64,000 nt of DNA from Alcanivorax sp. 1008 (GTDB lineage Bacteria; Pseudomonadota; Gammaproteobacteria; Pseudomonadales; Alcanivoracaceae): contig NZ_JAFMPS010000003.1 of NCBI RefSeq assembly GCF_020667895.1, forward strand, positions 125,586 to 189,585, given 5' to 3'. Below are positions 9,657-28,144 of the stretch, piece after piece. Both the position numbers and the translations under genes were made by a program. A model generated the notes under the pieces. It did not search any database. It had not been told where the DNA came from and saw only the letters and a program-made list of their open reading frames with translations. Each line of letters opens with the position of its first letter. The first letter of the stretch is position 1.

Positions 9657-10661
<1,005 letters not shown>

Positions 10662-10669
10662 CGCATCGC

Positions 10670-12244: not shown

Positions 12245-12402
12245 GGCCCGCATCCTCTCAATGCTCTTCGGTCAGAGGCCTGCATGATGCGCCCTGCGAA
12301 AACACCGCTGCAAGCTATAACCGGGCTGGCCCCGCTGGAGCCATTGCCAATCGCCTTCAGGACAGGGAAAATGCCGCCTTATTCGTTTCTGGGGGGTGTG
12401 CT

Positions 12403-13055: not shown

Positions 13056-13077
13056 GCGGGCGTCCTCTGACGCCCGC
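13056..13077. terminator. Candidate hairpin terminator between convergent genes
   Basis: Nine-base inverted repeat GCGGGCGTC / GACGCCCGC with a CTCT loop between the thrH stop (13020) and the end of the minus-strand surface-protein gene (13083). The following plus-strand T run is weak (TTGTGTT), so termination efficiency is uncertain. Confidence 0.55.
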
Positions 13078-13082
13078 TTGTG

Positions 13083-16000
13083 TTACTGCTGCAGCTGTAG
13101 TGAATACTCCAGGCGGAAGCCACCGTTGGGTGGCATTACGCCATCAAATAGCACCCGGAAGTGGGTCACGTTTGCATCATATCCCGGCGGTGCGCCGCCA
13201 CCTTCAGATACCGGTGTATATAACCAGCTCAGGCCGCCATCCTCAGAGTACTCGATGACATCGATGCTCAGCCCAGAAGAGATATAGGGTGCTGGCGCAT
13301 CAAAAAACTGAATGCTGCCCACAAGAAAATTGGTAAATTGGGGTAGCTGGTCGGTGACCGCCACACCTACCGCATCGCCAGTGCCCAGCACGTGAGTGTT
13401 GCTGACCAGCACCTGGTAATCAATGTCTTCGCCCGGTGAAGCAGATCCAGTGCTGAACAGCGAGGCAGATGCAGTGCTGGCCAGCTTGGATACCGCTAAC
13501 AGTGGCGGGTCGGTCAATTCAATGCTGGCCGCATTGTAATGGGTCACCGTACCCTCGGTTCCTTCGTTGGCCCGCACCCTGAGTGTAAATGGCCCGTCCT
13601 GCCAGTCCGCGGGTAGCGGCACGGCGTATTCAAACACCTTGGTATTGCCAGCTTGGCTGATCACCGCAGTTTGCCCATGGGGCCCACTGACCGGGTTATT
13701 CAGTGCATCAAACACTTCAACAATGCTGTCGTTATTGATATCGGCAAAGCCGAACGGGTCCGTTACCGTGCTACGCACATACACGGTGGCTGACTCCACC
13801 ATGCGGCTGATCAAGTTCCCGGCAGGACTGGCATCATCATAGATCTCGACACTATCCACGTTGATAACAGTGGATGCATCCACTTCCACTCTGGACGGCA
13901 GGTTGTCCGGTGAAGTACATAAGGTGCCGGCGCCATTAGAGCTGAAGTCCAGCGTGCGAAAATTATTGCCACTTGCCATATCCACTTGTAAACGCAGTCC
14001 CGCGCCGGAAGGTATCGTTGTTGGGCCGGTATGATTGACAGTGAAAACAAGCCACTGCCAATCTGTTCCTGCGAGGCTTTGAGTTGCTGGAGTGGCGCCG
14101 ATAATTGCATTAGTGTCGGATCGACGTACCGTGACTCCCACGGTGCGAGCGAGATCTGTGCGGGTGCCGGACTTTCTGACGCATAGATGCACGGCCATGT
14201 CGCCATTAATCACCAGGTCGTCGGAGAGTGCCGGACTAAGGTCCAGGTTCATCAGGTTGTTGCGATTGATTGGCGGCGTGGCATTGATATCGGTGGTCGG
14301 CACGGTACGTTGCAAGGTGCCGGTGGTGGCCGTTGCCGGATAGGCATACAGCCGCTTGTTGCCACTGACCGAGGCACCGTAAATCGTATCGCTCAAGGTG
14401 CTGCTGTTGTTGCTGCTGTCGCCATCCACGTTGCCATTGCCTGTTGCCAGGGTGACAGTGGCAGTATTGTCAACGTTCTGACTGCCGCTACCTACCGCGC
14501 CAACATCAACATCAATGAATAAGTCCGGCAGGCTGGCGCCGTTGGCCAGCGGGCCTGCATGGCTGCAGCTGATCGTTTGTGCCGGTGATTCGCTGCAGCT
14601 CCAGCCGGTGCCAGTAAAGCCTGTGTAGCTGAAGCGACTGTCCAGCACGTCGACTACTTCAATACTATTCAGCGTGGCATCAGGGCCGTTATTGCTAACC
14701 TGAATGCGGAACTGCGCTGGCTGGCTGGCTAATAGCAGGCCACTGCTACGCGTCTTGCTGATGGTCAGGTCAGAGCGGACGGCACAGTCGGAACCCGGGC
14801 TGACGCCATCAATATCATCGGGGTTGGTATCCGGTGTGCCACTGCCTAGTTCGCCGCCGCTGGGTGTGGCGCCGAAATAATTGCCCGGAGTAATGGTGTA
14901 GCCACTCGGGCCCTGGGTGGTATTGATTACAGCGCTGAAGCTGTCGTTGATAAACACCACGCCACCGCCGCCGCCGCCGCCGGGGCCGTGTGCAACGCCA
15001 CCGGGGTCCGCGTTGCCGCCGGCGCCACCCTCTGCATTGATGGTCAGGGTGCCGGTTTGGCCGTTAGCCAGTACTAAAGCCGAGCCGCCCGCACCACCGC
15101 CGCCACCGCCATCGTTGACAGGGTTGGGAGTGGTGCCGTCGCCACCATTCACGTTGATCACGCCGTTGCCGGCCAGATCATTGGCACGGATTAATACTAT
15201 GCCACCACCGACTCCTCCGTGGGGTGGAGGGCTGTCGCCGTTGTTGCCCGTGGCTGCGCCACCGCCGCCGCCCATGACCAAACGGTTGGGCAGGGCAGGA
15301 AACGCAGTGCCGCCATAGCCGCCCACCGGCAGGTTGCTGTTCCAGGAGTTACCGCCTCGGGCCCCGGCGCCGCCATTACCGCCGCCCCCGCCGCCGGAGT
15401 TTTCGTCGTTATTGCTGGGGCGGCCATCAGTGCCACCTCCGCCCGCATTGCCTGGGGCTCCTCTGGCATAGGAGCCGTTCGGATAGCCTTCTACACCAGT
15501 GTCAATTCGCGTGCCGCTGCCGGTGTAAACATAGCGAGGGGTGCCGGCAATACCTTCGCCTTTGGAGCCATGGGCACCATTGACCGTGTTGCTTGATGTG
15601 TTGCGAAAGTCGGTATTGGCAGCGCCGCCCCGGCCAGTGTGTCGAAAGCCGCCGCCGCCGCGGAAACCAGCGGCGCTCATATTGATGCTAAAGCCGTTAA
15701 AATCCAGTGTATTGGCTACGTCCAGTGGCAGCACACCGCCTGTTTCACCATTCCATGCCGGCGCAGAGATGTTGCCGGTTAAGGTAAGGTTGTCATACTG
15801 CGGTACACGGATTACCTGATAACGACTTTGCCCTATAGTGCCACTGGCGTTGGCCCGTACGTAACCATTTATTAGCGGGCTGTTAAGAGTAATCGTACCG
15901 CCGCCGACGGAGGCAACACCGGCATATTCGTAGCGTCCGGCCGTGAAGTTGCTATCGTTCAGCCAGCCAGATGCGTCGCCACCAGCAACCCCATCACCGT

Positions 16001-16277
16001 AGCTGTCAGTGTTGGCCGAGTTAATCCCGGCGCCCTGCATCTGAATGACCAGGACCATATCGCCGGCAGCAAGTCCGACCGTCGTTGTCAGGGAAATGCT
16101 GGTGGAGCCTGCGCCTACACTGCCAGTGGGCTGATAAAAACGTAGTGGCCCCGGAGTGCCGGCTTCCTCTGCACTACCTTCGTCCCCCGGGTCGGCTTCA
16201 CATTGCAAAGCCGCCATAGCCTGCGAGGAAAAAAGCAGGGCTATTGTGAGAAGCAATGTTTTGCGTAGAAGGTTCAC
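13083..16277 (-). CDS. Exported glycine-rich protein with DUF11-type repeats
   Basis: A 1064-residue protein with a Sec signal peptide (MNLLRKTLLLTIALLFSSQAMA, cleaved near 22). Residues about 200-460 are extremely Gly-rich and contain three repeats of a hydrophobic strand plus a Gly loop (for example GGGIVLIRANDLAGNGVINV and GGSALVLANGQTGTLTINA). Residues about 505-630 are a DUF11 conserved-repeat domain (SDLTISKTRSSGLL, VSNNGPDATLNSIEVVDVLD), a beta-sandwich with unclear region to about 870, and the C-terminus a second DUF11-like end (VTDQLPQFTNFLVGSIQF). Probably surface-exposed or secreted. It is the last gene of the minus-strand cluster, 102 bp after the giant OmpA-like gene. Function unknown; an adhesin or matrix role is inference. 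Confidence 0.75.
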   Translation of the reverse strand: MNLLRKTLLLTIALLFSSQAMAALQCEADPGDEGSAEEAGTPGPLRFYQPTGSVGAGSTSISLTTTVGLAAGDMVLVIQMQGAGINSANTDSYGDGVAGGDASGWLNDSNFTAGRYEYAGVASVGGGTITLNSPLINGYVRANASGTIGQSRYQVIRVPQYDNLTLTGNISAPAWNGETGGVLPLDVANTLDFNGFSINMSAAGFRGGGGFRHTGRGGAANTDFRNTSSNTVNGAHGSKGEGIAGTPRYVYTGSGTRIDTGVEGYPNGSYARGAPGNAGGGGTDGRPSNNDENSGGGGGGNGGAGARGGNSWNSNLPVGGYGGTAFPALPNRLVMGGGGGAATGNNGDSPPPHGGVGGGIVLIRANDLAGNGVINVNGGDGTTPNPVNDGGGGGGAGGSALVLANGQTGTLTINAEGGAGGNADPGGVAHGPGGGGGGGVVFINDSFSAVINTTQGPSGYTITPGNYFGATPSGGELGSGTPDTNPDDIDGVSPGSDCAVRSDLTISKTRSSGLLLASQPAQFRIQVSNNGPDATLNSIEVVDVLDSRFSYTGFTGTGWSCSESPAQTISCSHAGPLANGASLPDLFIDVDVGAVGSGSQNVDNTATVTLATGNGNVDGDSSNNSSTLSDTIYGASVSGNKRLYAYPATATTGTLQRTVPTTDINATPPINRNNLMNLDLSPALSDDLVINGDMAVHLCVRKSGTRTDLARTVGVTVRRSDTNAIIGATPATQSLAGTDWQWLVFTVNHTGPTTIPSGAGLRLQVDMASGNNFRTLDFSSNGAGTLCTSPDNLPSRVEVDASTVINVDSVEIYDDASPAGNLISRMVESATVYVRSTVTDPFGFADINNDSIVEVFDALNNPVSGPHGQTAVISQAGNTKVFEYAVPLPADWQDGPFTLRVRANEGTEGTVTHYNAASIELTDPPLLAVSKLASTASASLFSTGSASPGEDIDYQVLVSNTHVLGTGDAVGVAVTDQLPQFTNFLVGSIQFFDAPAPYISSGLSIDVIEYSEDGGLSWLYTPVSEGGGAPPGYDANVTHFRVLFDGVMPPNGGFRLEYSLQLQQ

Positions 16278-16310
16278 AGCTTAGTCCACCGTTTCATCTT
16301 TGTGCAGGTC

Positions 16311-16368
16311 AGAAGAGCCACTTTTTGGCAGTAAAGGCATTCGCATACAAGAGAGTGCTGGCTCTTCT
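16311..16368. repeat. Inverted repeat in the gap between two surface-protein genes
   Basis: AGAAGAGCCA (16311-16320) is repeated inverted as TGGCTCTTCT (16359-16368), with 38 bases between, inside the 102-bp gap separating the 1064- and 1807-residue genes. It could form an intercistronic hairpin or be an operator; no poly-U tract follows. Confidence 0.45.
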
Positions 16369-16379
16369 GGCATCAGGCA

Positions 16380-19300
16380 TTACTCTGTCTCCGTCACACT
16401 ATTCTTGAAGCGCTTGGCGCTGCTTTGATCAAACTTGATGCGGAAGTCCAGCACGATGCCTTGAACACGGCCTTGAGCACCGCTGAAGTCATCATCATAG
16501 AATCCGCGGAAGTTGTACCCAAGGCTGATCCACACATCACGAATCGGGCTGTAGCCAGCCATCAGGCCAAAGGAGTTCATGCGCACATTGCTGTTGTAAC
16601 TGGCCAGAGTACTGCCACGGACGCCAACGTCCCAACGGGGGGTAATGTCATAACGGTATTCGCCACCGATCAAGTCGGTGTAACCCGTGAAGCGCTGGCT
16701 ATCGATAGTGTCGCCCACATATCGGGCACCGTACTGAAGGGATACCTGATGGCGCTCCTGCGCAACAAAGTTCAGGTGGGTGTTGTTGATCAGGCGATGA
16801 CCATAGCGAGAGCCAAAGGCATCCCGTTGCTCGTCGTATACAACACGGCTGCGATTCAGCCAGAACCAGCTCTCGGAAAGGGGGCGACGGACATAGCTGA
16901 AGTCCAGCTCAGAGGAGCGCAGGATATCGCCAGTGCGGAACTTCTGGTCAAAGTGTAGTGCGCGGCCAGCAACCGTGTTGGTTTCATCAAGACGGTGCTG
17001 GAAACCCGACAGCAGGTTCCACTTGTCATCATTAACCGCATGGCGATATTCGACCCGGTTGGTCCACTGCCAGCTGGCATCCTGATAGCCGAGGCCGCCG
17101 GAGATAGCAGTGTAGTCGTTGCCATCGGTGCCGCTGGCAGGGGCGCGATCAGGATCAAAGGAGTCCACCGGGTTGCCGTCGACAAGTGTTTGGGCGCGGT
17201 CAAAGCCTATATCCGCGGTCCAGTACTGGGAAAGCTCAATAGTCTGGAACAGCCCTGCATGGGCCATCATGCGAGGACCATACTCATCCATGCTACGGCT
17301 AACCGATGTGCTTGCCGTCGCACCGCGCCATGGTGTGGCGCGGGCGCCTACGCGACTATCCTGAGTGCGCTGTTCATGGCTCCAGGTGAACTCCTGGTTG
17401 GCGAACAGGGACACTCGGTCAGTCAGGCGGTAATCACTGCCCAGCATCAGGCGGGAGGGATAGTCAGACTCGTCTGAACCGCTATTGATGCTGGTTTCAC
17501 CCGTTGCGGACAGGGTCAGGCGCTTGTCCAACAGGTCTTTTTGGCCACCGGCAATAAGTTGCTGGCTTTCAAAAATACCGCCATTGGTTACGCTTTCCAC
17601 ATGGCGTGCACCGGCGAATGCCTGCCAGTCCGGCTGCTGGTATTCCACCCGGCCTTCGACAAGATCACGTCGGTTGCCTGTATCAGGAACCTGCTGGCGG
17701 CTGGCATCAGCGCTTACGGCGACATCTTCATTAATGCGGTAGCGGATGCCTGCTTGAATGTTGCGGGAGTCCTCATCACTTGGTGACTGCTGGGTAAGCC
17801 CGAAACCATCATCGGTTTGGTCAATGCGTACACGGGTATCTACTTGCTCCGAGGTGTACTGGTGCTCAAGCAGCCAAGCCTGATCATTGCTGCTGCCCGG
17901 TTGCAGATCCTGTCGTGTTCCGGCCAACTCCGCCTTAATGGTGTGCTGCTCGGTGGGCTTCCAGACCACGTCTGCGCCGATAAGTGAACCGGGTGCAGCC
18001 AGAGTATCGTCATTAACGGCGGTTATGCCGACAGTCAGACTTTCATCTTCATTGAACACAGTGGCGCGGCCGCCGGCCACGGTTTTTTCTGCGCCGACTT
18101 CCACTTCGTAGGTCACCACAATGCTAAGTGGATTGAACGATGCATCTTGAACGGGGATCGGCTGGCGGAAGAACATGGTGCCGTCAGCGCTGTCCAGGCT
18201 GTAGTCGATAAAGCGGGTCATGGGCGTGCTGCTGATCACTTCATTGGTGAAGCGGTCGCGGACTTCGACGGTGACTGTTTCGCTACCCGGCACAATCGGA
18301 GCGCGGCTCAGCCGGTACAGGCCCGAGGTGCCGTCCGGCTCAATATCATCGCGGATAAAGCCTTGAGAGCTGTCCGCAACAAAGCCCAGTGCGCTGACAT
18401 TACGGCCACGCCATTCAGCTTTGGCACCGGTTAATACTCTTTGATAGCGCCCTAGCTCGGTGACGGTCAGACCGGTGTCGTAGTCACCGAAGAGAGCATA
18501 AAAATCACGCTTTTCCATTCGCACATAAAGTTTTTTACTGGATGGAGCATCGTGGGTGCGCTGTGCGTCATCGCCGTAAAGCACATACCAGCGCTGGGGG
18601 TCGATGGCTTGGTTCAAGGGGCGACCTTCCGGTACACGACGAGTGTCCAGCGCGGCGGTCAGCAGCCATTCTCCGGCAACCGTGCCGCGAGCAAAAAAGG
18701 CCATTTCACCGTCGACATAGGCATGTTTATCTGGCGAACCCAGATTTTGCATATTGCCGCTTAGCGTATTGTAGCCGACGGTTCCCTCGGCAAAGCCCAC
18801 CAGAATCCATTCACGCAAATCCGGTGATACAGCAACAGTGAGCTCATCAGAAACCACTCGTCCATCAGTCAGACGCAGCCGGTAGGTGCCTGCGGTGCTG
18901 ACCGGCGCAAAGCGAGCAATGCCATTCTGGTCCACCACAACCACGTCGCCACGGTCTTCCAGCGGGCTGGTGGTTTGGCTGTAATTGAGCGGCCGCAGGC
19001 TGCCACTGACAATACGCAGTTCAGTTTGCGCCTGTAGTGGTTGATCAAAGGCGTCGAACAAGTTGAGTTTCAGTTGAACCGGGGTTAAACCGTCTGCCAC
19101 ATTCTCGATGCTGTCGCCGCTGCGGATGCTTTTTAGTTCGCCACTGCGGCGCAGAGTTACCTTCTCACGGAAGCGTACGACGCCAAATCCGCCCTTGCCT
19201 TGCAGCTCAAAGTTATGTTCGCCGACACTATCAATCTCTACACCAACCCAGGTGTAAACCACGGTTTTGGTTGCTTCGTCAGCGATTCGTGAGCCGATGC

Positions 19301-21803
19301 GGGCATCTGAAACTTCCACGCCATCAAGCAGCAGCTTGGGTGTCAGTCGATCATCAAGACGGGCAGTGACACTGACGACGGGGTGAATAACCATCATCCC
19401 GTCAGTCAGGTTCAGAAAGCCTTTCTTGGCTTCCGCATCAGCCGAATCGTTGCGTTCGCTGGCTCGGTCGCGGTTCAGGCCGCTGTCGGCCACAACGGTG
19501 GCCAAGGTGGCATTGGACACCTGCTGCTGGGTAAAGAAGCGCACGGTGACACGGCGATTAAGCGCGCGGCCATCCGCTGTGTCGTTATCTGCAACGGGCT
19601 CATCCGGGCCTTTGCCGACAATGGTGATTTGCTCCAACGGAATGAGCAGTAGCTCTGACAGGTATCCTGCTACTGCACGTGCTCTTGCTTCTGAAAGCGC
19701 ATAGTTATCATTGATCACACGACCAGCACGGGGAACGATGCGCTGGCTATCTGTGTGACCATAAACCTCCAGGCGTAAACCTGGTTTGCCGCGCAGCGTA
19801 TCCGCCGCATTGCTTATATCTAAACGGTCACGCTCTGATAAGCCTGCGGACATGCTGGCGAAGCGGGGGCGCAGAACCAGCTCGTTGTCCTTCATCTGCG
19901 CGCCGGTGACTCTGACACTGTTTTGAGACGATACTGAAAAACGTTTGTTGTCCGGCGTGGTGCCAAAGGTGTTAAAGAGAATGCTTTGTTCCACGGTGTC
20001 ACGGGTGTTCGGATCCACGGCAAGATCCATTTCAAGAGTGTGGCGCCAGAAATAACCTTCGACGGGAAACTGGAACTCATAAAAGTTGTCGCGCTTGATC
20101 GGGTCCGAGATGGGCTTGCCGTCGAAGCGGATGCTGCCGGGTACCGGAGTCAAAGTATGCGGAAGAAACAGGTGCGTGGTGACATTGGTGAAAAGCGTTT
20201 CACCATTGCCAATTGGCAGGGTGATACGCGCCACACCATCTTCCAGGCGAGTGGTGAGTTGCTGCTGTAACTGAGCATCCAGTGCCGGACGTACGTTGAT
20301 GTACCAGTTCTCCCGCCACAGTGTGCCGCCCTGAACATTAACGAAACGGGAACTGGGGTTGCCAGCCTGCCGGGTGTTGTCATGGCATTGGCTCAGCGTA
20401 TGGCGTGGTCCCAACGTAATGGTGTCCAGCTGCAGGACATGGGTGCCTGGGGTGACGCCTTCAATATGCCAGCGACCATGCTTGTCGGTGATGACACTGG
20501 TGCCATCCTCCATATAAATGCGTACGCCTTCGAGGCCAGGAGCATCCTGCTCACCACAGGATCCGGCAATAACACGGCCCATCAGGAAAGCGCGATCGTT
20601 GAAGAATGGCCGCTCCACCAAAACCTCTGCTTTGGCCATGTTTGATCGCATGATGCCTGCCGTTGCTTGAGCCAGGTTGGCGGCACGTCCGGCACGGGCG
20701 GCCACTGTGACCTCAGTAACGTAGCGAACAGTTCGGCTGGCTCCTGGAGCGATATTGCCGACATCAATAGTGAGCTGGCTGCCGCTTGGATCAATTGCTG
20801 GGTCGGCCACTGCAATGCCATCAATGCGCAGCGAACCTGGCTGATAGCGAAAGCCTGCCGGCAGGGAGTCGATGACCTGTGTGCTCAGGGCCGGAGCGAT
20901 AGAGATGTTCTCTACATTGACATCGTAGGCGAGGAAGTCACCAGTCATCACCGCGCCGCGCTGGCTGGTCTTGGTTACGAACAGGTCCGTGTCTGGCAAA
21001 GGCGCAGCGCTGGTGGTGCTGCGACGTTCTGCCTGAATGCTGCCCAGTACCAGTGGGTCAACAAACCAGGGCGCGCCAGCAGTCAGACTGTCTGCAACAT
21101 CTCCATTGTTATCGTAGCGAATCTCCACGGTACTGTCCGGTGGGATAACGATAGGGCTGCCGGGGATATTGGGCTGCAGGTAGCCCACATAAACATTGCT
21201 GTTGGTGGCTGTTTCTACTAGCGCGATGGTGTAGCTGTCGCCGCTGCTGATATCAATAGTCACGCCGATAAAGCGCCGACCATCAGGGCGAGTTGCAATG
21301 GCGGTCGGTGGCAAAATCGGGGTGTTCGCAACAATAAAAATTGGCTCCCGGCCCTCGTAAAAGTCGCTGGGAGCAAGAGGGATAGAGCTGTTCAAGGGCA
21401 GCGGGGTGCCCGCGTCATCGATAGGCGCCGGAAGCGCGCCAAGCAATGAGGGTGTGCCAGACAGGCTATCCGGGGAGGCAAAGTTGCCTTGCCATACTTG
21501 GTAAGAGTCAGGGGCGCCTGGGTCGTAGCGATAAAGACCAATACTCTCATAACGCAACACTTCTACGTTTGCGGTGGCGGGCACCACCGAGCCGGACCAG
21601 CTTAACTCTGCTGGTGGCTGAGTAACCACCAGTGCCGCGCTGGAAAAACCGCTAAGCAATAGCAGTAGCAGAGCGACACAGGGCATGCTCTGGCGCTGCC
21701 AGCCTTTCAGGCGTGGCAGGGACAGAGCGAGCCACACAGCGACGAAAACCCCACTGGCAAATGCCAGTGGGGTTTTCTCACTGAGGATAAAGCTCCGTTT
21801 CAT
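16380..21803 (-). CDS. Giant composite surface protein: DUF11, CnaB-like, OmpA-like and beta-rich C-terminal domains
   Basis: Up to 1807 residues. A hydrophobic export signal lies near residues 40-57 (MPCVALLLLLLSGFSSA). Then come a beta-rich region, a DUF11 domain about 270-385 (TDLFVTKTSQRG), a CnaB/carboxypeptidase-regulatory-like fold about 408-455 (GLEGVRIYMEDGTSVITDKH), and an OmpA C-terminal peptidoglycan-binding domain about 626-755 (EVYGHTDSQR, NYALSEARARAV). From about 1000 to 1795 alternating beta-strand sequence rich in Tyr, Arg and Asp suggests a large outer-membrane barrel, ending in VLDFRIKF plus a 14-residue polar tail. The start is doubtful: a terminator-like hairpin lies in codons 10-20, so GTG 21737 or ATG 21686 may be the true start. 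Probably anchors to peptidoglycan and spans the outer membrane; transport or scaffold function is inference. Confidence 0.75.
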   Translation of the reverse strand: MKRSFILSEKTPLAFASGVFVAVWLALSLPRLKGWQRQSMPCVALLLLLLSGFSSAALVVTQPPAELSWSGSVVPATANVEVLRYESIGLYRYDPGAPDSYQVWQGNFASPDSLSGTPSLLGALPAPIDDAGTPLPLNSSIPLAPSDFYEGREPIFIVANTPILPPTAIATRPDGRRFIGVTIDISSGDSYTIALVETATNSNVYVGYLQPNIPGSPIVIPPDSTVEIRYDNNGDVADSLTAGAPWFVDPLVLGSIQAERRSTTSAAPLPDTDLFVTKTSQRGAVMTGDFLAYDVNVENISIAPALSTQVIDSLPAGFRYQPGSLRIDGIAVADPAIDPSGSQLTIDVGNIAPGASRTVRYVTEVTVAARAGRAANLAQATAGIMRSNMAKAEVLVERPFFNDRAFLMGRVIAGSCGEQDAPGLEGVRIYMEDGTSVITDKHGRWHIEGVTPGTHVLQLDTITLGPRHTLSQCHDNTRQAGNPSSRFVNVQGGTLWRENWYINVRPALDAQLQQQLTTRLEDGVARITLPIGNGETLFTNVTTHLFLPHTLTPVPGSIRFDGKPISDPIKRDNFYEFQFPVEGYFWRHTLEMDLAVDPNTRDTVEQSILFNTFGTTPDNKRFSVSSQNSVRVTGAQMKDNELVLRPRFASMSAGLSERDRLDISNAADTLRGKPGLRLEVYGHTDSQRIVPRAGRVINDNYALSEARARAVAGYLSELLLIPLEQITIVGKGPDEPVADNDTADGRALNRRVTVRFFTQQQVSNATLATVVADSGLNRDRASERNDSADAEAKKGFLNLTDGMMVIHPVVSVTARLDDRLTPKLLLDGVEVSDARIGSRIADEATKTVVYTWVGVEIDSVGEHNFELQGKGGFGVVRFREKVTLRRSGELKSIRSGDSIENVADGLTPVQLKLNLFDAFDQPLQAQTELRIVSGSLRPLNYSQTTSPLEDRGDVVVVDQNGIARFAPVSTAGTYRLRLTDGRVVSDELTVAVSPDLREWILVGFAEGTVGYNTLSGNMQNLGSPDKHAYVDGEMAFFARGTVAGEWLLTAALDTRRVPEGRPLNQAIDPQRWYVLYGDDAQRTHDAPSSKKLYVRMEKRDFYALFGDYDTGLTVTELGRYQRVLTGAKAEWRGRNVSALGFVADSSQGFIRDDIEPDGTSGLYRLSRAPIVPGSETVTVEVRDRFTNEVISSTPMTRFIDYSLDSADGTMFFRQPIPVQDASFNPLSIVVTYEVEVGAEKTVAGGRATVFNEDESLTVGITAVNDDTLAAPGSLIGADVVWKPTEQHTIKAELAGTRQDLQPGSSNDQAWLLEHQYTSEQVDTRVRIDQTDDGFGLTQQSPSDEDSRNIQAGIRYRINEDVAVSADASRQQVPDTGNRRDLVEGRVEYQQPDWQAFAGARHVESVTNGGIFESQQLIAGGQKDLLDKRLTLSATGETSINSGSDESDYPSRLMLGSDYRLTDRVSLFANQEFTWSHEQRTQDSRVGARATPWRGATASTSVSRSMDEYGPRMMAHAGLFQTIELSQYWTADIGFDRAQTLVDGNPVDSFDPDRAPASGTDGNDYTAISGGLGYQDASWQWTNRVEYRHAVNDDKWNLLSGFQHRLDETNTVAGRALHFDQKFRTGDILRSSELDFSYVRRPLSESWFWLNRSRVVYDEQRDAFGSRYGHRLINNTHLNFVAQERHQVSLQYGARYVGDTIDSQRFTGYTDLIGGEYRYDITPRWDVGVRGSTLASYNSNVRMNSFGLMAGYSPIRDVWISLGYNFRGFYDDDFSGAQGRVQGIVLDFRIKFDQSSAKRFKNSVTETE
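21745..21776 (-). terminator. Perfect 15-bp hairpin with T run, inside the 5' end of the giant gene
   Basis: AAAACCCCACTGGCA (21745-21759) and TGCCAGTGGGGTTTT (21762-21776) are perfectly complementary around a 2-base centre. Read on the minus strand this is a GC-rich stem followed by TTTTC, 38 bases after the stop of the upstream 375-residue gene: a classical intrinsic terminator. It is overlapped by the longest reading of the 1807-residue gene. Confidence 0.75.
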
Positions 21804-21813
21804 CCGGGTTCCG

Positions 21814-22941
21814 TTACTGCACGGTGACCTGGAACGTCACTACGGCAGTTTCACCGTCAATGATTTCCCCCGGACCGCCGGTAGCACTGTTGACTTGCAA
21901 GCCACCAACAAGAGGGGAGTTCGGGCCAACGTCTGCCACCGGGGCGCCGTTCAGCGTGGTGCTGTTAGGAACATACGCGGTGAACTCCGGGATGCTGTCG
22001 GAGATGGTTGCGCCGGTGATGGTTTCAGTAGGAATGGTGCCTGCAGTCAGACGATACTCGAGCACATCGCCGGTGCGTGCAGTTACGCCGCTAGTGGCGA
22101 AGGCGCCGCCATCAGTTACGTTACGTACTTCCTTGATCAGGGTTGCGTCACCTGACAATACGGTCACGGTGCCGCCACCGATATCGTCAAAGGTGACTAC
22201 GTCACCCGGGCCACCAGGGCCAGGAGCCGCTGCGGTACCGTCAATTACGATTTCGTGCTCACCTGGAGTGCCCGGGGTAAGCGGACTGCCTGCGTCCAGC
22301 TCGACGGTGAAGGTCTGTACTTCACCTACCTGAGTGCCGACCGGTACATTGCCTGCGATGATTGCCGGAGCAGATGCCTGAGGCGTCAGAGCCACAGCGG
22401 TCGGAGTCTCAGGCGTGGTGGTGTTGCCAGTTGTCGATGCCGGGGTACCCGGGGTGACAGAGCCGACGGTGTACAGATAGTCCGTACCACCAATGTTGAT
22501 CCGCACGGTATCACCCGGAATCAGATTGTCCTCAGAGCCAGCAGCAATGAAGATCGTGCCCGCTTGTGAAGGCCGTGAGGTAATAGACCCTGCCAGAGTA
22601 ACCTGAGGCGGAGTGATGGTTAGCGACGACGGAGCACCAACGTCTGTGTCATTCGTGCTTACCGTGAGGTCATAGATGTCACTGCCGTTGCTGTTACCGA
22701 TAATGGTGTAGTTAACCGTTACCGAGTCACCAGCATTGGCGGTTACCGTTTCCGAAGTGATGGTCGGTGCGGCACCGATGGTGCGCACTTCAACATCCAC
22801 GGAGGCAGTAACCTGTTGCCCGGTGCCAAACGTCATGGTGGCAGCGTTATGAATGGTAGCACCGCCACCGGTGGTGGCGAGAGCGTGGCCAGTTGTAGAC
22901 AGCGCAGCCAATGCCACCAGTCCTGTAAGTAATTTTTTCAT
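21814..22941 (-). CDS. Exported DUF11-type repeat protein
   Basis: A 375-residue protein with a Sec signal peptide (MKKLLTGLVALAALSTTGHALA, cleavage after ALA at 22). The mature N-terminus (GGATIHNAATMTF, VDVEVRTIGAAPTITSETVT) matches the layout of the neighbouring 408-residue protein, indicating paralogy. Two Ig-like beta domains follow, ending in a DUF11 module (TISDSIPEFTAYVPNSTTLN) and the C-terminal strand VVTFQVTVQ. Rich in Thr, Gly and Val, almost no Cys or Lys: typical of an extracellular beta-sandwich protein. A ribosome-binding site AAGGATG precedes the ATG. No catalytic motif seen. Confidence 0.72.
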   Translation of the reverse strand: MKKLLTGLVALAALSTTGHALATTGGGATIHNAATMTFGTGQQVTASVDVEVRTIGAAPTITSETVTANAGDSVTVNYTIIGNSNGSDIYDLTVSTNDTDVGAPSSLTITPPQVTLAGSITSRPSQAGTIFIAAGSEDNLIPGDTVRINIGGTDYLYTVGSVTPGTPASTTGNTTTPETPTAVALTPQASAPAIIAGNVPVGTQVGEVQTFTVELDAGSPLTPGTPGEHEIVIDGTAAAPGPGGPGDVVTFDDIGGGTVTVLSGDATLIKEVRNVTDGGAFATSGVTARTGDVLEYRLTAGTIPTETITGATISDSIPEFTAYVPNSTTLNGAPVADVGPNSPLVGGLQVNSATGGPGEIIDGETAVVTFQVTVQ

Positions 22942-22966
22942 ATCAATTCATCCTTTGTTGAAACTT

Positions 22967-22997
22967 CCGGTGACCGGCGAGGACGCCCGGTCACCGG
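22967..22997. repeat. Intercistronic hairpin between the 408- and 375-residue genes
   Basis: CCGGTGACCGG (22967-22977) and CCGGTCACCGG (22987-22997) form an 11-bp perfect stem with a 9-base loop in the 64-bp gap. No U run follows on the minus strand, so it may be an mRNA-stabilizing or processing hairpin rather than a terminator. Confidence 0.6.
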
Positions 22998-23005
22998 GGG
23001 TTCCG

Positions 23006-24232
23006 TCAGTCAATGGTGACCTGGAAGATCACATGGCTTATTTCCGTGGCGAGCAGCGTGCCGCCATCCCCATTGCCTGCACCACCAGTGGTATCGTCGC
23101 CACCCGCGCCTGCGTAGACGTAGACGGTTCCGTTGCCGGTAGTATCCAGTTCGGCAGCATCGCCATCATCTGCGGTTTCATCCTGAGCGACGAAGGTGCC
23201 GTCACCTGGGTCAAGCTCGATGGAAGAAGCAACAAAAGTTGTGAACTGCGGAATCGGATCCGAAACCACGATGTTGTTCGCGGTACCTGCACCAGCGGCC
23301 CTATTATCGATAACAATCAGGTACTGCATGGTGTCGCCCGGATTTCCGGTAACGCCCGAGGAGTAGTAATCAACGCCATCAACAGTGATGTCGGCCGCAA
23401 CCGGGTTGAAGGTGGTGAGCGGGGTGGCGTTGCGCACATACTTGGTCACGGTGAGTACAGGGCGGCGCACGGTGATTACAGTGGCAGTAAGTTGCGTGCC
23501 GGATACCGCTCCATCAAAGTCGGATGTGGCAGTCGACAGAATAGAGTGGGTGCCGGATGTACCCGCAGTAATCGTATCCGTGGTGATATCCACAGTTACA
23601 GTGTCACGTTGACCGATTGTTGTGCCGTAGATGAAGCCATTGGTAGTGCCCGCGGTCAGCGTAATGGTGACCGTGTTAGTGGCAGCGCCTGTGGTTTCAT
23701 CGATACTGTCAATAACGGCAACTTCGGCTGTGCCAGTCGGGTCAATGACAATGGTGTCGCCCACTGCCAGGCCGTTGACGATGCCGTCATCTGTGCCATC
23801 AAAGGGTACGATGATATCGGTGTCAGTGGCAGAAATTGCGCTGGCCACGGTTGTTGCACCAAGATCAATGCTGGGATCATCACCGACCGCGTCAGCATCC
23901 ATATTTGTACGTGTGTCTGCGGAGGTGAAGTTGTAGGTGTCAGGACCGTTGGCTGTGCTGGTAACGGTGTATACCAGACTGACCACGGTGTCTTCGGTGG
24001 TTGGGTCCACGTCTGCCGGTGATGATACCAGCGGTATAGAGGCAACCAGATTTACATCAATCTCAACACTAGCCGTTTCTGCTGGCTGTGCATTATCCGC
24101 AGCATCGCTGTAGTTCACCGTTACCGTATTGGTAATAGTGGTGTTTGCCGCCGTGGCAAAAGCCAGGCTGGGGATTAACGCTGCACTAGCAAGTAATGCG
24201 CTCCCCCCCAATAGTTTCTGTAAATGTTTCAT
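23006..24232 (-). CDS. Exported DUF11-type repeat protein with poly-G tract in its signal peptide
   Basis: A 408-residue protein with signal peptide MKHLQKLLGGSALLASAALI, cleaved after AFA near 26. The mature N-terminus (ANTTITNTVTVNYSDAADNA, VSLVYTVTSTANGPDTYNFT) parallels the 375-residue neighbour. The C-terminal DUF11 module contains VVSDPIPQFTTFVASSIEL and ends in VIFQVTID. It is very Asp/Thr-rich and acidic, so calcium binding between beta domains is possible but not shown. Codons 9-11 contain a run of seven G (24203-24209 as C on the plus strand), where slippage would disrupt the signal peptide. GAGGA upstream of the ATG is the ribosome-binding site. Confidence 0.72.
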   Translation of the reverse strand: MKHLQKLLGGSALLASAALIPSLAFATAANTTITNTVTVNYSDAADNAQPAETASVEIDVNLVASIPLVSSPADVDPTTEDTVVSLVYTVTSTANGPDTYNFTSADTRTNMDADAVGDDPSIDLGATTVASAISATDTDIIVPFDGTDDGIVNGLAVGDTIVIDPTGTAEVAVIDSIDETTGAATNTVTITLTAGTTNGFIYGTTIGQRDTVTVDITTDTITAGTSGTHSILSTATSDFDGAVSGTQLTATVITVRRPVLTVTKYVRNATPLTTFNPVAADITVDGVDYYSSGVTGNPGDTMQYLIVIDNRAAGAGTANNIVVSDPIPQFTTFVASSIELDPGDGTFVAQDETADDGDAAELDTTGNGTVYVYAGAGGDDTTGGAGNGDGGTLLATEISHVIFQVTID

Positions 24233-24272
24233 TTTTTTATCCTCAGTGTTTGCACCCCGGTTTGGTGATGCG

Positions 24273-24342
24273 CATCAGGCCTGCTGGAGTGCGAAGGCGG
24301 CCTGATGTTTCTGCTAACTCGGTAAAAACCATGTTTTTACCG
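24273..24342. repeat. Two consecutive inverted repeats between the first two cluster genes
   Basis: CATCAGGCC (24273-24281) pairs with GGCCTGATG (24299-24307). Next to it CGGTAAAAAC (24320-24329) pairs with GTTTTTACCG (24333-24342). Both lie in the 131-bp gap between the 166-residue gene and the 408-residue gene. They may be partial terminators that set expression ratios, or operators. Confidence 0.5.
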
Positions 24343-24363
24343 GGTTTGCAAAAAACGTTTTAA

Positions 24364-24864
24364 TTACTGCACGACTACAGAAAACCCGCTGCTTCCCTGA
24401 GCACCTGCGCCGACTTCTTCAATAATCCAGCGAATGGCGTTGTACTGTTCTGGAGAGGCTTGGCGATCTTCCGGCTGACCATTCGTGCCAGTGACTTGAT
24501 AGGTCAGGTTGCTGGCTTTTTTGAATGTTTTACCGCCGTCAATGGAGAAAAGAATCTCGCTGTTTTCCCCCCAGGCGCTGTTTGCCTGATAGGAAGTTGC
24601 TTCCGGCACCGGGTTATCAAGTCGCACATTGCGAGCAGCTTCATCGCCCGTATTGCTGTAGTTGATGGTGTAGAACAGGACGTCACCCGGCACGGTATCG
24701 GTGGCCGCTATGCGGCGAGTGACTTGCTGGCCATTTTCATCCACTTCTACAACGTCTTTCTCGGCGGAGATTTGTAGTGAAATCTGTGGTGCTGCCATCG
24801 CTATCATGCTGGCGGCGGTTAGGCCGAAGGCAAGCAAAGTATTGCGAATCATACTCATCATCAT
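24364..24864 (-). CDS. Small exported DUF11-domain protein
   Basis: A 166-residue protein with a signal peptide ending ASMIAMA (about 24 residues). The rest is a single DUF11-like beta-sandwich: VPGDVLFYTINYSNTGDEAA is the family start, RLDNPVPEATSYQANSAWG the shared core, and FSIDGGKTF resembles the EDGGLSW segment in the 1064-residue protein. It ends GSSGFSVVVQ, the same kind of C-terminal strand as its neighbours. First gene of the minus-strand cluster; AAAGGAGAGACACA precedes a run of three ATG codons, so its start may be 24864, 24861 or 24858. Closest to the putative regulated promoter region 24960-25050. Confidence 0.75.
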   Translation of the reverse strand: MMMSMIRNTLLAFGLTAASMIAMAAPQISLQISAEKDVVEVDENGQQVTRRIAATDTVPGDVLFYTINYSNTGDEAARNVRLDNPVPEATSYQANSAWGENSEILFSIDGGKTFKKASNLTYQVTGTNGQPEDRQASPEQYNAIRWIIEEVGAGAQGSSGFSVVVQ

Positions 24865-24971
24865 TGTGTCTCTCCTTTGATATTTATTGGTCCAGAGCCG
24901 TCTCCGGACTCCCGGCTAGTGGTTCCTGACCCTCAGCATGAGCTGCCTGCAGGAGTGCCATCAGCTGGTTT

Positions 24972-24987
24972 TGTGACACAGATCACT
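24972..24987. promoter_or_regulatory. CRP/Vfr-like palindrome upstream of the surface-protein cluster
   Basis: TGTGACACAGATCACT fits TGTGA-N6-TCACA at 9 of 10 defined positions. It lies about 110 bp before the first cluster gene, in a 208-bp gap, next to a TAAAAT -10-like box on the minus strand. Suggests cAMP-receptor-protein control. Site seen by eye only. Confidence 0.5.
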
Positions 24988-25018
24988 GATATTTTAGTGG
25001 TATCAGCATGCATATGTC

Positions 25019-25047
25019 CTGAACGCGCCATGAACAAGATATGAACA
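25019..25047. promoter_or_regulatory. 11-bp-spaced direct repeats, candidate OmpR-family binding site
   Basis: ATGAACA occurs at 25030-25036 and 25041-25047, with a third partial copy CTGAACG at 25019-25025. The 7-base unit plus 4-base spacer gives exactly the 11-bp period of PhoB-type boxes. It sits just past the end of the response-regulator gene and about 155-185 bp before the first surface-protein gene on the same strand. Confidence 0.5.
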
Positions 25048-25072
25048 TCTGTGGTTCTTGAGTGCTTGATGA

Positions 25073-25792
25073 TCATGTATCCATGCCTACAAAGCGGTAC
25101 CCGGCACCAGCCACCGTCTCAATGAGAGGGCCGGGCACGCCAGCGGCCTCCAGCTTTTTGCGCAAGCGGTAAATCAGCACCGTGACGGTCTCCTCGCTGG
25201 TGGTTTCCATTGGCGAGGACATGGCCCGGGCCAGCTGGCGCCGGTTACATAGACTGCCTTTTGCCTGAATCAGTTCTCTTAGCAGGTCCCGCTCACTGCG
25301 GGTCAGGCTTACCATTGCACCTTGGGGGCCGGTAACCCGGTATTGGCTGGGCTGCAGGTGCCACTCGCCGAAGCTCAGTGATGATGTCGCCTGAGTGGCT
25401 CCGGCGGCCCTGCGGGAGTTTTGTCTACGCAGAAAGTTGCGGATCCGGAACTCCAGCTCGCGAGCGTTAAATGGTTTGACGATATAGTCGTCTGCCCCGG
25501 CTTCCAGTGCTTCCAGCCGGCTATGCTCATCGCAGCGACCCGATACCACAAACACCGCGGTATCACCCGCGGCGGCCAGCTCTTTTAGAAGGGCTAATCC
25601 ATCACCGTCGGGCAGATTGAGGTCCAGCAGCAACAAGTCGAACTTCTCGGTGGTGGACAAGGCTCGGAAACTGGCAAGATCGGCGGCCTCTAGCACCTGA
25701 TAGTGCATCAGGGATAGAAAGTCTCTGAGTACGGCACGCAGGGCCGCGTCATCTTCCAGAACCAGAACCCGGTATGCTGGCGTCGCATTCAT
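25073..25792 (-). CDS. OmpR/PhoB-family response regulator
   Basis: A 239-residue two-domain regulator. The receiver holds the acidic pair EDD (13-15), acceptor Asp57 in LLLLDLNLPDGDG, and the Lys in IVKPFNAREL. The C-terminal winged helix (about 140-238) has SLTRSERDLLRELI and the DNA-contacting segment EETVTVLIYRLRKKLEAAG, ending in VAGAGYRFVG. Its ATG overlaps the stop of the upstream kinase by four bases, so they are a coupled pair. The next genes downstream on the same strand are the surface proteins, the obvious candidate targets. Its specific target is inferred, not known. Confidence 0.92.
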   Translation of the reverse strand: MNATPAYRVLVLEDDAALRAVLRDFLSLMHYQVLEAADLASFRALSTTEKFDLLLLDLNLPDGDGLALLKELAAAGDTAVFVVSGRCDEHSRLEALEAGADDYIVKPFNARELEFRIRNFLRRQNSRRAAGATQATSSLSFGEWHLQPSQYRVTGPQGAMVSLTRSERDLLRELIQAKGSLCNRRQLARAMSSPMETTSEETVTVLIYRLRKKLEAAGVPGPLIETVAGAGYRFVGMDT

Positions 25793-27906
25793 GGTCGGGC
25801 CTCCGCGCTTTGTGCCGGTGGCGGGAATGACAGGTTAAAGATCGTTCCGGCACCGGGAGTGCTGTGGATCGTCAAGGTCGCATTGTGGATGCGCACAATT
25901 CGATCAACGATATAAAGGCCCAGTCCCATTCCGGGCACACCGGTGGCAGTGTCGGCGCGGAAATATTTGTCCAGCACCTGGCTGAGCTCTTCTTTACTCA
26001 TGCCGCATCCCTCGTCACTGATTTGTATAACTATTGAATAATCTGGGCGCTGCTCGGCAATGACATGAACAGATGAGTTTTTTGCGGAGTATTTCACCGC
26101 GTTGTCAATAATATTGTTGAGCATGGTGAGCAGTAGGTCGTAGTCGCCCTGTATGTAAATGTGTTCATCGCATACAACAGAGAAGCTCCGGTTCCCGGAG
26201 GAGATCATTTCTCCGTAGCTGATGCTGTTGTGTAGTAATTCGCTGATTTGAATGAATCTCGCATTTTTGCGCCACTCTGCGCTATCAAGTTTGTCTTCGC
26301 GTAGCGCCTGGTTGATTACGGCAGCCATTCTTTCGCTGGCGTGTTGTATTCTTTCGCAGTTGGTTGTGGCATGAACTTCCGGTGTGCGTGGGTCGCTGGC
26401 AATAAGGTCACTGGCCATCTGGATGACGGACAGCGGGGTGCGGAACTCGTGAGCCACCATGCGTAGAAACTGCCTTTGCTCCAGTGCTGCCTTCTTTTCT
26501 GCATCAAGAGCAACGGAGAGGCGAGAATATGTTTTCTCCAGATCAATGGATTTTTGTTTGCTTATCTTTAACTGTTGTTCAAGACTTTGATTGACCTGGT
26601 CCAGTTCAAATGTCCTCTGGCTGACCAGGTTTTCCAAAAGTTTCTCAGAGTGCCGTATGCTTGCCAGTGCGGATTCTCCAGCGCTTCGCATGGTTTTTTC
26701 CAGCTGAACATATTTGGTCGCCAGGGTGATAAACATTATTCCTATATGGCTCAGAACAATGATTATGAAGTTATTTTCTGAAAGTATATTTGGACCCGAT
26801 AGGCCAAAAACCCAGGCAAAGCGGATAATCAAGCCAGTCGCAACAACGCCAAATGCGCTGGCGTATATGTAGGCGACGAGGCCGATTTCTTTGCGCAGAA
26901 AAAGAGTGGCAATAGGAATGGCTATAAATATTGCAGCGAAAATCATCCAGTAAAATGGGATGCTTATGTTGTAGAGCCCAAACATCATGGGGATGATGCC
27001 GATGATCGCGGCTGCAGATGAACTGAAAATCAATGCTTTATTGATTTTTGGATGATAAATCTTCAGGTCCGTGATTTTACTGAATAGAATCACCAGAGTT
27101 ACCAAGCCTGCAGCCTGGAAGACAACTTGAAGCCACTCCAGATGCAGTGGCGTCGCCGGCGCTACGATAAAATGGATAATGCCTTCAATTTGAGCAATAA
27201 GAAGTGTGTATGACAGTGCGTATAGCAGGAAATACAGGTATACGGATTGCCTTAGGAAGGTAAGAAAAAGCAGGCTCAAAGCGCATACTAGGACTCCGGC
27301 GCTAAGCAAAGCCCCATAGAGAAACATGGCGCTGGCAGATTGGACAGCGAATGTATCGCTTTTCCACAGTGTCAGGTTCGCAGCGATGCTGCTGGTGCTT
27401 CGTAACTTGACGTAGAACGTTACCGGTCCTTCATTCAGGTGAGGCAGTTGATAAAGGGAGTGGCGCCAGGGGATGACTCGTTGCTGCCACGGTTCTCTGT
27501 CACCCTGAATGCCAAGATCCTGAACCTTGCCGTTGTGCACGCTGAATAGCCTGACGTGGTCGAGGAACGAAGGGGATACACCGAGCAGTCTCGGGACGTG
27601 CTCGATTTCTTGAGATACCGCGGTGAAGCGGATCCATATGGTGTCGCTTGTGTAGCCAAAGCTTGGCTGTCCTGCCGCATCAGTGAACAGGCCCTGACGA
27701 TCACTAAGGATAATGTCATCAATGTTCATTTGCCCGCCACTGTCACGATACCAGGCCATACTCCCGGACAGTGACTGGTATGGCTGATCGTCGAGTACCA
27801 GTGTGGTTGCTGGCGACCATGACGAAGCCAGTAGCATCCAGATAAACATCAGTGCGCCTGCAAGACTCCTTGCAAGCGGGCGGGTGTTATCCAGAGGTCT
27901 CGCCAT
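25789..27906 (-). CDS. 7TMR-DISM sensor histidine kinase
   Basis: About 705 residues from ATG 27906 (MARPLDNTRPLARSLAGALM); the frame is open 25 codons further upstream. A signal anchor is followed by a periplasmic 7TMR-DISMED2-like domain (about 30-160; GLFTDAAGQPSFGYTSDTIW). Then come seven membrane helices (about 175-385; 7TMR-DISM), a coiled-coil linker, HisKA (MVAHEFRTPLSVIQ, His near 484) and HATPase (NNIIDNAVKYS, GMGLGLYIVDRIV). DISMED2 domains are thought to bind carbohydrates or other small ligands outside the inner membrane. It forms a two-component pair with the overlapping response-regulator gene. The signal is unknown; a polysaccharide-derived cue would suit a surface or matrix programme. 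Confidence 0.9.
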   Translation of the reverse strand: MARPLDNTRPLARSLAGALMFIWMLLASSWSPATTLVLDDQPYQSLSGSMAWYRDSGGQMNIDDIILSDRQGLFTDAAGQPSFGYTSDTIWIRFTAVSQEIEHVPRLLGVSPSFLDHVRLFSVHNGKVQDLGIQGDREPWQQRVIPWRHSLYQLPHLNEGPVTFYVKLRSTSSIAANLTLWKSDTFAVQSASAMFLYGALLSAGVLVCALSLLFLTFLRQSVYLYFLLYALSYTLLIAQIEGIIHFIVAPATPLHLEWLQVVFQAAGLVTLVILFSKITDLKIYHPKINKALIFSSSAAAIIGIIPMMFGLYNISIPFYWMIFAAIFIAIPIATLFLRKEIGLVAYIYASAFGVVATGLIIRFAWVFGLSGPNILSENNFIIIVLSHIGIMFITLATKYVQLEKTMRSAGESALASIRHSEKLLENLVSQRTFELDQVNQSLEQQLKISKQKSIDLEKTYSRLSVALDAEKKAALEQRQFLRMVAHEFRTPLSVIQMASDLIASDPRTPEVHATTNCERIQHASERMAAVINQALREDKLDSAEWRKNARFIQISELLHNSISYGEMISSGNRSFSVVCDEHIYIQGDYDLLLTMLNNIIDNAVKYSAKNSSVHVIAEQRPDYSIVIQISDEGCGMSKEELSQVLDKYFRADTATGVPGMGLGLYIVDRIVRIHNATLTIHSTPGAGTIFNLSFPPPAQSAEARP

Positions 27907-28144
27907 ATCAGTTTCCGGGCATGTGTTGCAGTCTGTTAACTCAAGAACCATGCCAACATTAGATTGAAGCCAGAATGCCACATCATTCTTCTGGCATTTT
28001 CATTTTAGTTCAATAAATTCAAATGGTTGGGGGGTTATTCGGTGGGTTGATGAATTGCATGGATATTCACACAGGAAGGGTCAAAAAGGTGAGTTGTGCG
28101 TACTGCGTCACATTATGACAGGTCGCAGTGTTTTTCAGGTGAAT

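Follow-up and report, generated by a model that had tools for sequence, protein, structure and literature searches.

A conserved block of exported DUF11 proteins

The window, a 64,000-nucleotide stretch of the genome of Alcanivorax sp. 1008, contains five clustered genes for exported proteins of the DUF11 type, here called p166, p408, p375, p1807 and p1064 (Table 1). The genes are real, conserved and clustered, as claimed in an earlier note on this DNA: all lie on the minus strand, and every product exceeds the NCBIfam cut-off of 24 bits for TIGR01451 (p1064, 36.9; p408, 33.5; p1807, 32.5; p166, 28.4; p375, 26.2). The Pfam DUF11 family (PF01345) is weaker than TIGR01451, passing its cut-off in a protein scan only for p1064 and p1807 (residues 273–382 of the latter), with no match in p375 or p408, and a genome search with the same family recovered p408 but not p375. 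The AgmC-like, Gly-rich N terminus of p1064 scored 157.5 bits, below the family cut-off of 275. Intergenic gaps among the five genes are 131, 64, 10 and 102 bp, and 208 bp separate p166 from the regulator gene; terminator-like sites in the region were in no excess over shuffled sequence (11 versus a mean of 13.4). The sensor kinase and OmpR-type regulator do lie upstream on the same strand, as previously described, but the coordinate 27906 given for the kinase is an internal ATG and the open reading frame reaches 27981.

Table 1 Features of the DUF11 block and its surroundings
Feature	Coordinates	Strand	Description
p166, 166 aa	24364-24864	minus	Exported protein made of one truncated DUF11 domain, acceptor without donor; TIGR01451 28.4 bits
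p408, 408 aa	23006-24232	minus	Middle subunit, donor at N terminus and truncated acceptor at C terminus; Asn35, Lys264, Asp325
p375, 375 aa	21814-22941	minus	Middle subunit, donor at N terminus and truncated acceptor at C terminus; Asn32, Lys270, Asp315
p1807, 1807 aa	16380-21803	minus	Presumed base anchor: degenerate N-terminal donor without Asn, complete DUF11, OmpA, C-terminal barrel-like region
p1064, 1064 aa	13083-16277	minus	Acceptor-only presumed tip: Gly-rich AgmC-like N terminus, one complete DUF11 and a truncated one at the C terminus
OmpR-family response regulator, 239 aa	25073-25792	minus	Pfam Response_reg, Trans_reg_C; 4 bp overlap with kinase
7TMR-DISM sensor histidine kinase	25789-27981	minus	730 aa, or 655-670 aa from internal start; Pfam 7TMR-DISMED2, 7TMR-DISM_7TM, HisKA, HATPase_c
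p408 donor segment, residues 27-59	24056-24154	minus	Tail-profile match 8.8 bits, Asn at aligned position
p375 donor segment, residues 23-51	22789-22875	minus	Tail-profile match 11.6 bits, with Asn
Complete DUF11 domain of p1807, residues 270-405	20589-20996	minus	Reference domain; own profile 2-139/139, 161 bits
OmpA domain of p1807, residues 648-750	19554-19862	minus	Pfam, 49.8 bits, E 4.6e-13; OmpA-domain structures matched
Conserved barrel-like C-terminal region of p1807, residues 985-1807	16383-18851	minus	Alignment A4 (19 sequences), alternation pattern
GC-rich hairpin, terminator-like on plus strand	13056-13077		Directly past p1064 stop

The order p166–p408–p375–p1807 on one strand was kept in all ten loci uncut by a contig end (the window and L031–L039), and full-length p375 was present in exactly those 11 of 57 relatives with a close p1807 homologue, counting G007, in which p1807 is split over two contigs. 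One further genome (G052) carries a more distant anchor of 1,650 aa and gave no p375-profile match. This constancy of order and strand, together with the co-occurrence of p375 and p1807, indicates clustering beyond chance. The core genes travel together, which agrees with the previous proposal of a single functional unit. Homologues of the p1807 barrel-like region were found in 52 of 369 genomes of the class and 58 of 398 of the phylum, and a Novosphingobium plasmid (alphaproteobacterium) carries a related system, as judged by eye.

Other parts of the block are less constant. The composition expected earlier, small beta-sandwich subunits with a giant OmpA-type outer-membrane protein, holds, but membership of the Gly-rich p1064 varies: proteins with other N-terminal domains fill its position in other loci. 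Nor do the loci support the earlier idea of a dedicated two-component system: a regulator homologue (48–93% identical) adjoins p166 in six of the ten close loci, with the window counted among them, whereas the DISM kinase has a homologue at the cluster in only two (the window and L031). Given this loose link, we rejected the two-component system as a defining part of the block. In L044 and L045 the cluster is adjoined by a different DISM hybrid kinase.

Terminal DUF11 domains lack the strands that bear the isopeptide Asn

The DUF11 domain, also called CLIPPER, has a solved structure, 9IFR, from the Acinetobacter silvestris adhesin B9T28_05395, in which Lys715 is bonded to Asn806 with Asp748 (PMC12617251). 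Our profile A8 matched 9IFR with an E value of 1.5e-6, and the Lys, Asp and Asn positions correspond; counting the chain by hand from Lys715 places 806 at the Asn of VVNKVTA and the Asp one residue off the published 748.

Every exported subunit except the anchor has a C-terminal DUF11 domain that ends after about position 98 of 131, with the last strands absent; p166 terminates at the last strand of its truncated domain. Terminal DUF11 matches stopped at model positions 96–101 in 68 of 70 cases in the held-out set (60 loci) and 37 of 40 in the family set, versus 0 of 128 and 1 of 117 internal matches, respectively. The absent strands are those that bear the isopeptide Asn, and the terminal domains end before its position. 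This split-domain pattern, the source of the mechanism suggested below, was absent from the earlier note.

The cut domains of p408, p375 and the tip nevertheless retain both the isopeptide Lys and the catalytic Asp. Across truncated terminal domains other than p166, Lys was present in 117 of 122, Asp in 114 and both together in 113; these readings were taken from alignments, with the most Lys-rich column chosen as the Lys column, so that the alignment may favour Lys. Reading Lys by pattern or masked score proved too noisy and was replaced by the alignments, and ORFs cut at stretch ends, as well as one frame-split ORF in L052, were left out before Lys, Asp and donors were counted. In the held-out set, p166-like proteins excluded, Lys was found in 78 of 78 cut domains and Asp in 76 of 78. 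Complete reference domains have Lys (33/33), Asp (98%) and Asn (41/41) within one domain, unlike the terminal domains. The p166-like proteins retain Lys in only 19 of 49 cases, indicating that Lys is not conserved in this family and is dispensable for the truncated fold itself; the placement of their Asp is unsafe, because the position is filled mostly by Asn or Gly in one alignment and mostly by Asp in another.

N-terminal segments match the missing strands

Pieces matching the absent strands, Asn included, are found at the mature N termini of both middle subunits, p408 and p375, and in the same place in many homologous anchors. The p408 and p375 scores were reached by none of 200 shuffles each, and the p375 segment was also matched by a stricter first tail profile (E 1.5e-4). 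Built without softened weights, that first profile missed 11 of 11 p408 and 7 of 11 p375 homologues; the softer profile and its thresholds were chosen after these misses and then left unchanged for the held-out loci. There, 44 of 78 subunits had an N-terminal donor above 5 bits, all 44 with Asn, as did 28 of 38 anchors (27 with Asn, one with Ser), compared with 0 of 33 p166-like proteins and 0 of 500 other ORFs as controls. With the Asn column masked, donors were found in 24 of 78 subunits (all 24 with Asn), 12 of 38 anchors (11 Asn, one Ser) and 1 of 500 background ORFs.

The tail profile gave no donor match in any p166-like protein (0/49) or at the N terminus of p1064, and none, with Asn absent, in the p1807 of the window and eight other close anchors. 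Two donors (L041 p363 and L069 p340) have Ser in place of Asn, though their own acceptors retain Lys. Among the 60 held-out loci, 20 had neither half and four had an acceptor without a donor match; the 45 uncut loci had exactly one acceptor-only subunit in 20 cases, none in 21 and two in four. We excluded as members a third class of relatives (L046–L049 and L091), in which a DUF11 giant of about 4,400 aa lies beside a 1,700-aa OmpA/barrel protein, because both domain halves are absent there.

Effect of joining acceptors to donors on DUF11 scores

When acceptors in the held-out loci were fused with donors from their own locus, the DUF11 score rose by a median of 12.5 bits (n = 168), compared with +0.3 bits for other N termini (n = 1,560) and −0.7 bits for shuffled donors (n = 740). 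An independent joining test with the Pfam model was mixed overall across the window proteins. The p375 acceptor with the p408 donor gave a near-complete DUF11 match (20.6 bits, 12–113/114), and the p166 acceptor rose from 25.5 to 30.3 bits (4–113/114). There was no gain for the p408 acceptor with the p375 donor and none from the N terminus of the window anchor, and p375 with its own donor gained little in DUF11 score.

AlphaFold2, given one second sequence (from L051), produced no usable model, with pLDDT values of 39.4 for p375 and 42.0 for p166. When profiles were compared with the Protein Data Bank, p408 and the p1807 barrel-like region had no matches, and p375 only matches at E values of at least 0.66, which we took as chance.

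A candidate donor-strand fibre

On the evidence of these complementary halves, we consider it probable that the block encodes a donor-strand surface fibre built from split DUF11 (CLIPPER) domains, with a probable Lys–Asn weld between subunits. Each joint would arise when the N terminus of a subunit completes the C-terminal DUF11 domain of its neighbour and, as the acceptor retains Lys and Asp while the donor brings Asn, a Lys–Asn isopeptide bond would form between the chains with no need for a sortase. As an acceptor only, p1064 would be the tip, a place that counterparts carrying different binding domains would take elsewhere, and p1807 would be the base, fixed to the outer membrane through the barrel and to peptidoglycan through OmpA. 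The anchor donor lacks Asn in the window's own clade, so there the final joint to the base would not be covalent. More speculatively, p166 might cap donor strands reversibly or terminate the chain. Adhesion or biofilm formation is the likely use of such a fibre. Several results weigh against this reading: the failed structure predictions, the close anchors with neither donor match nor Asn, the misses of the first tail profile, the mixed Pfam joining test, the held-out loci lacking one or both halves, the varying number of acceptor-only subunits and the two donors with Ser.

A fibre whose split domains complement one another between subunits but form no isopeptide bond is unlikely. The loss of Asn, Lys or Asp in the window-clade anchors and a few tips and donors would fit it, implying that some joints can do without a covalent bond, but the joint presence of Lys and Asp in 113 of the 122 truncated non-p166 domains would be hard to explain without a bond. 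Lys drifts in p166-like proteins. It is quite improbable that the proteins are instead circularly permuted, with the N-terminal strand of p408 or p375 filling its own C-terminal domain and an intramolecular bond yielding monomeric adhesins. Donor and acceptor do share one chain in both proteins, and our analyses do not separate pairing in cis from pairing in trans; folding in cis, however, leaves unexplained why acceptor-only proteins (p1064 and its counterparts, and p166) and donor-only anchors coexist in the loci.

It is highly improbable that the barrel protein recognizes the cut DUF11 end as a C-terminal signal for sorting or secretion, with the N-terminal motif unrelated: nearly all proteins that partner the barrel protein do have the final strand at their extreme C terminus, where C-terminal sorting domains of other systems also lie, but the Asn-bearing N-terminal copies of the tail and the retained Lys and Asp would go unexplained. 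Independent DUF11 proteins forming a surface layer or loose matrix have a precedent in archaeal S-layers and aggregates (PMC12617251), but this reading has hardly any probability here, as the ordered logic of tip, middle and base points to a linear polymer; of the surface layer, fibre or matrix offered earlier, the fibre fits best.

We extend the donor-strand reading to a class of Gram-negative fibre that dispenses with both sortase and chaperone–usher machinery, in which natural split CLIPPER domains would join and weld, the base would unite the anchor and perhaps an exit pore in one chain, the tip would be freely swapped between lineages and p166 would be a reversible donor-strand cap. We judge this fuller proposal to be evenly balanced between right and wrong.

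Comparison with known systems

In chaperone–usher pili, an N-terminal donor strand fills the incomplete Ig-like domain of a neighbour, and the tip is acceptor-only. The proposed fibre would resemble them in both respects, and its sequence halves fit. It differs in that the window's genome (99.78% complete) gave no match to the usher family (PF00577; the control search found E. coli), that no PapD-type chaperone was found by Pfam among the proteins of the block, and that the donor consists of the last DUF11 strands with Asn. In sortase pili of Gram-positive bacteria, subunits are joined by isopeptide bonds, and there is a tip adhesin and a wall-bound base, as is proposed here. There an enzyme acts at a C-terminal motif, whereas here the bond is predicted inside a split domain, and the same genome has no sortase match (PF04203; the control was positive in 3 of 14 genomes). 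SpyTag/SpyCatcher and related pairs likewise link the two pieces of a divided isopeptide domain by a covalent bond, but were engineered by splitting natural domains, whereas the split described here is apparently natural and would build a polymer.

Closest in operation are the threads of Sulfolobus acidocaldarius (Saci_0406), a donor-strand fibre with an additional inter-subunit isopeptide bond made without sortase, which links Asn57 to the N-terminal Asp24 of the subunit two places along (PMC9715654). They differ in being archaeal, with no outer membrane, and DUF11 is not named in that paper; the proposed fibre would use an internal Asn with a Lys partner. The 9IFR domain belongs to the same family, but is whole within one fibrillar-adhesin chain, whereas here the domain is divided between two proteins. 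Likewise, the OmpA-anchored fibrillar adhesins to which its parent belongs hold adhesin, stalk and OmpA in a single chain, and here the adhesin-like part, the middle part and the OmpA part each have a gene of their own. For DUF11, the available part of PMC12617251 describes only intramolecular bonds; it also refers to an intermolecular isopeptide bond that is natural and autocatalytic and lies in a helical hairpin (citing Remaut, Sleutel and Sogues 2025). A literature text search, with bioRxiv preprints outside its scope, found no split DUF11 fibre. Separately, donor strand and DUF11 are named together in a paper on endospore appendages.

Donor-strand fibres and isopeptide bonds are already known; what we claim as new is the system and its naturally split domain, not the physical principle. 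If the proposal is correct, it would add a class of covalent pilus-like fibre for Gram-negative bacteria, spread across Gammaproteobacteria and at least one alphaproteobacterium, the carrier of the Novosphingobium plasmid. It would also provide natural tag-and-catcher pairs for protein engineering. Terminal DUF11 domains would gain a function, and the role of each gene as tip, middle or base would be predictable from its two ends.

The exported proteins form a conserved unit

On the minus strand the genes run in the order kinase, regulator, p166, p408, p375, p1807 and p1064, the five exported proteins being named by length in amino acids and all exceeding the cut-off of TIGR01451 (DUF11-type repeat). 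Pfam models identified one complete DUF11 each in p1807 and p1064, and an OmpA domain in p1807; the barrel-like region of p1807 contains, by a rough count, many alternating stretches. The genome carrying the window comprises 3.5 Mb in 115 contigs; of the named records, the one closest to it is L051, from a metagenome-assembled Alcanivoracaceae bacterium, with 97% identity in the anchor protein, p1807. The flanks of the block are ordinary, and a malate dehydrogenase gene also borders the cluster in four other loci (L031, L034, L036 and L037).

That the exported proteins form one unit, as the earlier note proposed, was borne out by comparison. A close p1807 homologue (44–97% identity) occurs in 11 of 57 relatives searched, in one case spread over two contigs, and full-length p375 was found in exactly these 11 and in none of the other relatives. 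The order and strand of p166-p408-p375-p1807 are constant in the 10 loci free of contig-end cuts. The fifth gene is variable: the position of p1064, or one nearby, is taken by proteins with other N-terminal domains, including Gly-rich, lectin-like (Laminin_G_3), P-domain and GEVED types. The proposed dedication of the two-component system to this block was not supported: among 10 close loci, the regulator adjoins p166 in 6, and a homologue of the DISM kinase is next to the cluster in 2. A hybrid kinase of the 7TMR-DISM sensor type, no close homologue of the window kinase, adjoins a related cluster in L044 and L045; this sensor type may recur alongside fibre genes.

Coordinates of features in the window and in compared loci
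Locus	Position	Feature
Window	9687-12253 and 28207-29187	Flanks: CysB regulator, nitrilase/GNAT protein, malate dehydrogenase
L040	2160-3296	p375 homologue
L044	14868-17504	Hybrid kinase
L045	3700-6336	Hybrid kinase
L092	9175-14409	Further window-genome protein, 1,744 aa

Terminal DUF11 domains lack the isopeptide Asn

We built a DUF11 profile of 131 positions from 41 complete domains of family loci. A profile of complete domains matched (E = 1.5e-6) the solved CLIPPER domain 9IFR, which has a Lys715–Asn806 bond with Asp748 (PMC12617251). Of the 41 domains, all 33 with a residue at the position of the isopeptide Lys have Lys there; Asp occurs in 98%, and Asn in all 41. The terminal DUF11 domains of p166, p375, p408, p1064 and their counterparts end at about position 98, at the end of the chain, and the part absent is the part bearing the isopeptide Asn. 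Of the terminal matches, 37 of 40 from family loci and 68 of 70 from held-out loci ended at positions 96–101; for internal matches the corresponding counts were 1 of 117 and 0 of 128. The 60 held-out regions were hand-picked, 40 from class matches (52 of 369 genomes) and 20 from phylum matches (58 of 398). In L092, an N-terminal-side DUF11-like stretch ends at position 101, mid-chain.

Terminal domains other than p166-like ones (n = 122) retain Lys in 117 cases and Asp in 114 (78 and 76 of 78, respectively, in held-out loci alone), whereas p166-like proteins with the same truncation have Lys in 19 of 49 (Fisher P = 1e-15, a value that is too small because the sequences are related). Lys is therefore not required for the cut fold, and seems to be retained for a partner.

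N-terminal segments resemble the absent strands

Residues 15–135 of each protein were scanned with a tail profile of DUF11 positions 99 onward, which was softened once a stricter version had missed p408 and frozen afterwards. The best tail match of the whole protein lies at the mature N terminus in 10 of 11 p408 and 10 of 11 p375 homologues, and family N-terminal matches were equalled by at most 4 of 200 shuffles, except for p375 of L040 (62 of 200). In this L040 homologue the acceptor Lys is replaced by Arg and the donor Asn by Ser, a single case that looks as though the two ends of the bond had been lost together.

Donors scoring above 5 bits were found in 44 of 78 held-out subunits, all with Asn, and in 28 of 38 held-out anchors (27 Asn, 1 Ser), with none in 33 held-out p166-like proteins or 500 other open reading frames. 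With the Asn column masked, they were found in 24 subunits (24 Asn), 12 anchors (11 Asn, 1 Ser) and 1 of the 500 other frames (Gln). Long tip-like proteins make up most of the subunits lacking a donor, and a small number of clear donors (L057, L097, L102 and L103) score under the threshold.

When terminal domains were fused to donors from their own loci, the DUF11 score rose by a median of 12.5 bits (168 joins; at least 5 bits in 90%), a gain partly built in because donors were chosen by the tail profile, compared with +0.3 bits for other N termini (n = 1,560) and −0.7 for shuffled donors (n = 740). As 129 of the 740 shuffled joins reached model position 120, match extent alone says little. 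Pfam models, which are independent of our profiles, gave a mixed outcome on window pieces, with clear completion of p375 or p166 by the p408 donor, no completion of p408 by the p375 donor and none with the window anchor. No usable structure model was obtained.

A putative donor-strand fibre and its spread

A tip with only an acceptor, middle subunits with donor and acceptor, and a base with only a donor would together make up a linear donor-strand fibre. The presumed base, p1807, has an OmpA domain and a barrel-like region. Because acceptors retain Lys and Asp while Asn comes in trans, the joint would be covalent and need no enzyme; the window genome gave no sortase or usher match. The base joint of the window clade would be non-covalent, since the donor of its anchors has no Asn. 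A p166 protein lies next to nearly every cluster of this kind, and may cap donors or terminate the chain.

The barrel family is broader than the fibre system: both halves occur in 36 of the 60 held-out loci, the acceptor alone in 4, and neither half in 20. Uncut loci (n = 45) contain exactly one acceptor-only subunit in 20 cases, two in 4 and none in 21; the tip is thus not always within the cluster. Loci L046–L049 and L091 pair a related barrel protein (about 1,700 aa) with an adjoining DUF11 giant (about 3,900–4,500 aa) that has a different conserved C terminus (TEVFWR-like); these loci have the barrel in common with fibre loci, and the split-domain pattern is absent.

A plasmid of Novosphingobium sp. 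THN1 (L116) carries, by eye, a two-half subunit, a p166-like protein, a donor-bearing anchor and a tip-like protein, with some frames broken. An anchor with a donor is also encoded on a mobilizable Acinetobacter haemolyticus plasmid (L115), where a transposase gene adjoins the cluster; the system may therefore pass from species to species.
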